Shown: positions 12,175 through 13,574 of the stretch, piece by piece
Layout: every line of letters begins with the position of its first letter
Position numbering within the stretch: position 1 is the stretch's first letter
NCBI RefSeq assembly: GCF_003609605.1
Contig: NZ_MCHY01000013.1
Coordinates: forward strand, 62,001-126,000
Reading direction: 5' to 3'
Length of the DNA stretch: 64,000 nt
From: Ammoniphilus oxalaticus
GTDB taxonomy: Bacteria > Bacillota > Bacilli > Aneurinibacillales > RAOX-1
Notes under the pieces: model-generated
What the model saw: the letters and a program-made list of their open reading frames with translations, nothing else
Databases searched by the model: none
Told to the model about the DNA's origin: nothing
Translations under genes and position numbers: made by a program

Positions 12175-12522
12175 ATGGCAAAGAAAAAACAACACCGCGT
12201 GTTCCCCGTCCTTAGATTGTTTTCCGAAGAAAACTATAGAGGCAGAAGCGTCACAGTTCGAGGCGCTGTCGCTGTACGCGATTTAGAACGACGTTTCGAC
12301 ACCGATAGTCTCCGCTTCTTCTCTACCAATCCAAATGCCACACTCGTCATTTTCTCAGAAAAAAACTTCCACGGATCCTTTAGAATCATCAGAGGCAACC
12401 GAAACATCAGAAACATCGATGACATGGAATCATTTGTCATGGCAAACTTCCACATTTCCGAAGCGCAAGTACGTCGCCTGCAACGGACTGGTAGATTGCC
12501 GCGCTTCTTCAGAGTATTTTAA
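12175..12522 (+). CDS. Beta/gamma-crystallin-like protein
   Basis: A 115-residue very basic protein (many Arg/Lys) with two Greek-key-like motifs: RLFSEENYRGRSVTVRG near residue 14 and IFSEKNFHGSFRIIRG near residue 58, each with the aromatic-(x4)-aromatic-x-Gly pattern of beta/gamma crystallins and separated by a DSLRFFS motif. In bacteria such domains often bind calcium and occur in spore or surface proteins (Myxococcus protein S). No signal peptide is present. Placement among coat-like genes and a CATAGAATA -10 suggest a sporulation role, which is inference. Confidence 0.65.
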   Translation: MAKKKQHRVFPVLRLFSEENYRGRSVTVRGAVAVRDLERRFDTDSLRFFSTNPNATLVIFSEKNFHGSFRIIRGNRNIRNIDDMESFVMANFHISEAQVRRLQRTGRLPRFFRVF

Positions 12523-12536
12523 GAGGCAACGATAGA

Positions 12537-12581
12537 AAAGAGTGGCGCGTCGACATAAATTGACCCGCTACTCTTTTTTTG
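12537..12581 (+). terminator. Terminator after the crystallin-like gene
   Basis: AGAGTGGCG pairs with CGCTACTCT (one G-T pair) and is followed by seven T. Confidence 0.75.
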
Positions 12582-12599
12582 TTCAGTTATTCCTTCCTG

Positions 12600-12691
12600 T
12601 TATCCACAGAACGCGGCTGATTATCCACAATGCTAACACAAATCAAATGCGATATTTTCAATCGGAATCACCTTTTATGAACTTATCCACA
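12600..12691 (+). other. Cluster of three perfect DnaA boxes
   Basis: TTATCCACA occurs exactly at 12600-12608, 12621-12629 and 12683-12691, all in the same orientation. Spacings of 21 and 62 bp are close to 2 and 6 helical turns. No dnaA, dnaN or other origin gene is nearby, so this is more likely a DnaA-titration or regulatory cluster than oriC. The surrounding 455-bp gap (12523-12977) holds this cluster, one terminator and a possible SigK promoter, and otherwise nothing recognised. Confidence 0.6.
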
Positions 12692-12919
12692 GGTTGACAG
12701 GAAATAAAGATACGAAATAAATTCATAAGCCAATCAGCGCGCGGGAATAGTTGACGAAAGTCCATCTATTTCGATCGATAGGCCAGATTGACTCTATTTA
12801 GATGTCAAAAGTCCACTTAACTCAGCCCCCGATGAATCGCAGGGCTTAGATTCCTGATCAGTTCCATCAAGCGCCAACGCGCGCGTTCATCCCCGGGTAT
12901 TTTCTCCCATAGCAAAAGC

Positions 12920-12946
12920 ACACTTTTATAACCACGACATACACTA
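12920..12946 (+). promoter_or_regulatory. Possible SigK promoter of the cupin coat-like gene
   Basis: AC at 12920 and CATACACTA at 12938-12946 (16-base spacer) match the SigK pattern AC-N16/17-CATAnnnTA. The position is 32 bases before the start codon. Confidence 0.45.
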
Positions 12947-12977
12947 AGGTCATAAGCCTATGAAAGGATGATTCTTT

Positions 12978-13574
12978 TTGTATAATCCGTATAGACCCTA
13001 TCCATACCCTTATCCAGTTGCTCCTTCCCCATATGTTTACCCGATCCAACCTCAATCATATTGGGCAAATCCATATGGCCTGCAGTATCTCCCATGTTCC
13101 CATCACACCTCAACAGAGTCATGGAACGAATCTTCAAGATCTGAATCGATTCCTACTTTAAGGGATTATGGACCTAATCCATTTACAATCAATATTAATC
13201 AAGCCGCAAAACAAAACGATACGTATCGGACTGCTATTTGGACGGGCGAACATCTTCAGGTAACATTGATGAGTATTAACGTAGGAGATGATATCGGTTT
13301 AGAAATACACCCGACAACAGATCAATTCCTTCGCGTTGAAGATGGGCAAGGTCTTGTGCAAATGGGAAAAAACAAAGATCGATTGGATTTTCAAAGACAA
13401 GTTCGTGATGACTCCGCGATTATGGTCCCCGCCGGCACATGGCACAACGTAATTAATACAGGAAATAAACCGCTAAAATTATATACCATTTACGCGCCGC
13501 CACATCATCCACGCGGTACAGTCCAACGAACAAAAGCAGAGGCGGAAGCAGCAGAAAACCACCACAACTACTAA
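12978..13574 (+). CDS. Cupin-domain protein with Pro/Tyr-rich N-terminus, probable spore coat component
   Basis: A 198-residue protein starting at TTG (GAAAGGATG upstream). Residues 1-40 are a Tyr/Pro repeat region (YRPYPYPYPVAP and similar) typical of spore coat proteins. Residues about 85-170 form a single cupin: the metal-binding set IGLEIHPTTDQFLRVEDGQG supplies His, Glu-like and Gly positions and PAGTWHNVINTGNKPLKLY is the second cupin motif. The tail is Glu/Ala/His-rich. The SigK-like promoter and N-terminus point to late mother-cell expression. Enzymatic activity is unknown. Confidence 0.75.
   Translation: MYNPYRPYPYPYPVAPSPYVYPIQPQSYWANPYGLQYLPCSHHTSTESWNESSRSESIPTLRDYGPNPFTININQAAKQNDTYRTAIWTGEHLQVTLMSINVGDDIGLEIHPTTDQFLRVEDGQGLVQMGKNKDRLDFQRQVRDDSAIMVPAGTWHNVINTGNKPLKLYTIYAPPHHPRGTVQRTKAEAEAAENHHNY

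Follow-up and report, generated by a model that had tools for sequence, protein, structure and literature searches.

A same-orientation triplet of DnaA boxes outside oriC in Ammoniphilus oxalaticus as a likely addition to the DnaA titration pool

Three exact DnaA boxes (TTATCCACA), all in the same orientation, lie within 92 bp of a spacer without genes in the Ammoniphilus oxalaticus genome (3.32 Mb, 13 contigs; Table 1). They are the only exact copies in the window, by which we mean the whole 64-kb stretch of DNA analysed (C13:62001-126000). We consider it likely that the three boxes constitute an extra-oriC chromosomal cluster that holds DnaA and adds to the titration pool. The locus itself is very probably a lineage-specific DnaA-box cluster outside oriC, of a known kind; this identification rests on the statistics of the triplet, on sister clusters in the same genome and on where the same triplet falls in other Bacilli. 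The initial annotation had reported three exact boxes in gene-free DNA and had read them as a DnaA-titrating cluster of the Bacillus type. The boxes were confirmed at their positions, and the cluster is supported by these three lines of evidence; titration is the role that we infer from them.

Table 1. Features of the cluster spacer and its surroundings (positions in the window)
Feature	Position	Strand	Remarks
Sigma-K/E-like -10 of the 115-aa ORF, CATAGAATA	12141		motif search
115-aa ORF, probable beta/gamma-crystallin fold	12175-12522	+	sub-threshold match
Spacer without genes, 455 bp, containing the box triplet	12523-12977	.	no convincing gene
Hairpin plus T run, intrinsic-terminator-like, ending the upstream gene ahead of box 1	12536-12581	+	read from sequence
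DnaA box 1, TTATCCACA	12600-12608	+	exact match
DnaA box 2, TTATCCACA	12621-12629	+	exact match; box 1 to box 2, 21 bp
DnaA box 3, TTATCCACA	12683-12691	+	exact match; box 2 to box 3, 62 bp
TTGACA, weak promoter-like site	12694		2 bp after box 3
Sigma-K/E-like -10 of the cupin gene, CATACACTA	12938		motif search
198-aa cupin-domain protein	12978-13574	+	

When the window was shuffled (n = 100), exact boxes averaged 0.43 per sequence, and three boxes anywhere in it were reached in only 1 of the 100. One-mismatch boxes occurred in the window at the chance level (61 observed, 59 expected), so that the exact triplet alone stands out; none of them lies within the cluster spacer as an accessory box. 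A genome-wide scan of the sort proposed by the initial annotation returned 56 exact boxes, whereas the reversed control word was found 16 times (pattern searches). With 56 sites scattered randomly, three fell within the triplet's span with a probability of 5.4e-5 (one million simulation runs). Among 9-mers of mixed composition, the DnaA box is the only one in the window to occur three times within 100 bp, and in the parts of C13 examined outside it comparable recurrence was confined to overlapping words of one evident repeat. The sequences flanking the three boxes differ from one another, indicating that the triplet is not a recent duplication. As the initial annotation had noted, the two spacings come close to whole helical turns (2.0 and 5.9 turns at 10.5 bp per turn). 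However, both spacings would deviate from whole turns by no more than 0.1 turn in ~4% of cases by chance (own arithmetic, ~1 in 25), and spacings at other clusters take many different values; we therefore gave little weight to helical phasing, which is weak evidence for function.

No convincing gene was found in the spacer (12523-12977), and no RNA family in the 64-kb window. The spacer also contains a second paired motif, TGWCNNAAGTCCAYNTA, at 12752-12768 and 12803-12819, 51 bp apart. Similar pairs or single copies are present at about five other sites in the genome (C9:451 kb, 625 kb, 630 kb and 283 kb; C8:843 kb), the direct pairs being 52-62 bp apart, and a weaker likeness was seen in another genome (G003). 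This motif is possibly a dispersed repeat or the remnant of a transposon end.

The same genome carries sister clusters at recognisable DnaA loci. Its single dnaA gene, at 335 kb on contig C9, has exact boxes on both sides, and TTATCCACA is thus also the box employed at this species' oriC; the encoded DnaA is normal-looking, with the domain IV motif GGRDHTTVIHANDKI. Further groups of boxes are found beside tsaD/gcp, upstream of ywlC and upstream of rlmH/yydA, together with a pair of boxes between sda and a yifB-like gene (C8:463500-465700). The tsaD, ywlC and rlmH clusters are also present in relatives of the order. These clusters and the sda pair have counterparts among the strongly DnaA-bound regions of B. 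subtilis, namely gcp-ydiF, ywlC, yydA and yqeG-sda (PMC4447404). The box pair between sda and the yifB-like gene was seen in two other genomes as well (G004 and G005), the layout of the sda checkpoint being conserved across the order. Four exact boxes, all on the minus strand, lie within 1 kb towards the end of contig C9 (C9:701.0-702.0 kb); to our knowledge, this group is beside no known DnaA locus.

The arrangement box-(5 to 35)-box-(35 to 65)-box in a single orientation was searched for in 398 Bacilli genomes, with the reversed word as control. There were 43 matches in 40 genomes, and none for the control. Thirty of the 43 matches were inspected: 10 were at oriC, 6 at tsaD, 8 at rlmH (several of these come from close relatives and are not independent) and 1 between jag and trmE. 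DnaA-binding loci of B. subtilis thus account for 25 of the 29 inspected matches other than the window's own. The remaining five of the 30 are the window triplet and four others, whose neighbours were named by eye: one adjoins a ribosomal-protein S14-like gene, another has flagellar genes and a ribosome-hibernation-like gene nearby, and the last two occupy a single shared locus next to a cheW-like gene. The survey shows that a triplet in one orientation marks DnaA loci specifically throughout Bacilli, and that tsaD and rlmH clusters turn up again in distantly related members of the class. Dense clusters with five exact boxes each were observed upstream of rlmH in one genus (L145-L152), and seven exact boxes were observed beside tsaD at another locus (L160). 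Two species of one family (L156 and L157) have in common a same-orientation triplet downstream of an aminopeptidase-like gene, a locus that, as far as we know, is not among the known DnaA loci.

The position of the cluster relative to oriC was deduced from the contig ends, which carry prophage genes on both sides, from gene order and from the sign of the GC skew. The right end of C13 holds purD/purH, more pur genes, a pbuG-like gene and guaA, and then prophage genes (pbuG and guaA identified by eye), and the left end of C9 begins with prophage genes followed by groEL (by eye) and tsaD. B. subtilis shares this gene order (gcp, groEL, guaA, pbuG, pur, pcrA-ligA and gatCAB). GC skew is negative over all of C13 and over the first 50 kb of C9. 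The prophage genes occupy C13:163-171 kb and C9:1-38 kb, and probably belong to one or two prophages interrupted by an assembly gap. Assuming that the C13 right end joins the C9 left end, a join that is unassembled, the cluster would lie about 97 + 337 = 434 kb from oriC. On its chromosome arm the cluster would sit about a quarter of the way out, probably within the third nearest to the origin. The initial annotation's placement of the boxes far from any replication gene holds for dnaA, which is on another contig, but needs qualifying: pcrA and ligA are 39-43 kb from the cluster, inside the window, and the locus is probably origin-proximal.

The locus is not a homologue of a known cluster, since its flanking genes, a crystallin-like ORF and a cupin gene, match no known DnaA-binding locus. 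No relative with this spacer or gene neighbourhood was found in the genus (one genome), family or order. Similarly, exact boxes upstream of the cupin gene were not found in family relatives, nor was a comparable box cluster found at 80 other cupin loci. In three genomes of another family, complete or nearly so, the proline dehydrogenase gene, which here adjoins the cupin gene, lies a long way from dnaA; gene order around the locus has therefore changed between families. Identity as oriC was rejected, there being no dnaA beside the boxes, and so was a plasmid or phage origin, the spacer having no match in plasmid and phage collections.

Among known systems, the cluster resembles the extra-oriC clusters of B. 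subtilis (downstream of gcp and upstream of ywlC, yydA, yqeG/sda, trmE and ywcI/vpr) in having several TTATCCACA-type boxes close together, intergenic and outside oriC, and the genome possesses homologues of four of these (tsaD/gcp, ywlC, rlmH/yydA and sda). It differs from them in its flanking genes, which correspond to none of these loci in B. subtilis, and in consisting of three boxes only, in one direction, with no one-mismatch boxes alongside. E. coli datA is likewise a chromosomal DnaA-box cluster outside oriC, and it lowers active DnaA, acting with IHF to promote DnaA-ATP hydrolysis (PMC5295017); the window cluster is unrelated to datA in sequence and setting. As at the sda promoter, DnaA boxes are found near sporulation-tied genes, but there is no sda at the window cluster.

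Titration appears to be the likeliest role, with the cluster acting mainly as a passive DnaA sink. DnaA would bind the three high-affinity sites and stay held there, and the cluster would join those at oriC, tsaD, ywlC, rlmH and sda in the pool of sites that sets free DnaA. A replication fork passing the locus, ~434 kb from oriC, would double the sites, so that free DnaA would fall slightly, and this slight fall may help to delay re-initiation. In B. subtilis, loss of all six extra-oriC clusters leads to early initiation, which is partly relieved when one cluster is restored at various places (PMC5295017; PMC13220808), and a strong effect requires the removal of all six (PMC5295017). The effect of a single three-box cluster on initiation would be small. 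Arguing against a sink, only three boxes are present, compared with 4-12 sites in each of the eight strongest B. subtilis DnaA regions (PMC4447404), and the locus is not known to bind DnaA elsewhere. Of 269 in vitro DnaA sites in B. subtilis, only eight were seen bound in vivo (PMC4447404).

Three exact 9-mers might have come together by chance, either with no DnaA role or bound with no effect. The locus is not conserved and the genus is represented by one genome, so that selection on the boxes is not visible by comparison; an accidental origin followed by real but inconsequential DnaA binding is compatible with the data. Nevertheless, chance is a rather improbable explanation given the simulated probability for such a triplet among 56 scattered boxes, the lack of any other 9-mer recurring in this way in the window, and the differing box flanks, which argue against recent duplication. 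The simulation and the empty control of the Bacilli survey also speak against the possibility, foreseen in the initial annotation, that similar clusters could be expected by chance. Alternatively, DnaA at box 3 might activate or repress a weak vegetative promoter whose transcript would run towards the cupin gene and carry a leader of ~250 bases. The TTGACA just past box 3 is followed 18 bp on by TAAATT, and DnaA of B. subtilis regulates sda, ywlC, trmE and other genes (PMC4447404, PMC8203912). However, TAAATT is a poor -10, promoter-like sites in the stretch show no excess over chance (4 found, 5.2 expected), the cupin gene has a nearer sigma-K/E-like -10, and its relatives lack exact boxes upstream. 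We regard this regulatory role as unlikely.

A tie to sporulation has even less in its favour. Both neighbours of the cluster are probable spore genes: each is preceded by the -10 motif CATANNNTA, which we take to be of the sigma-K/E kind, and the best 80 matches of the cupin protein come mostly from spore-forming Bacilli and Clostridia. On such grounds the cluster could couple the state of replication to sporulation via these two genes, a tie that the initial annotation had suggested. We find it very improbable. Both resemble late mother-cell genes, whose expression follows commitment to sporulation, and their sigma-K/E-like motifs lie away from the boxes, which sit behind the terminator-like hairpin (fold of -24.0 kcal/mol for a 61-base stretch starting at 12530) and ~250 bp short of the cupin -10. 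Moreover, sda, the established link between DnaA and sporulation (PMC8203912), is elsewhere, at C8:464388-464513, with its own box pair just upstream (C8:464582 and C8:464673), as it is in G004 and G005. An sda-type replication checkpoint at the cluster was rejected for this reason; there is no convincing second Sda-like small ORF in the spacer, and the Sda model matches only one place in the genome, on C8. Direct control by DnaA at the cluster, whether of the cupin gene as a late spore gene or of an unannotated transcript from ~12730, is just as doubtful, although it would, if true, be a second replication-to-sporulation link besides sda.

Holding of DnaA by the three boxes is thus the reading that we prefer. 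If DnaA does bind the cluster, then a lineage of Bacilli can possess a new cluster outside the conserved loci and unrelated to them. Such a case would fit titration, which depends on how many boxes there are and where they lie, better than it would fit control of one given neighbour gene.
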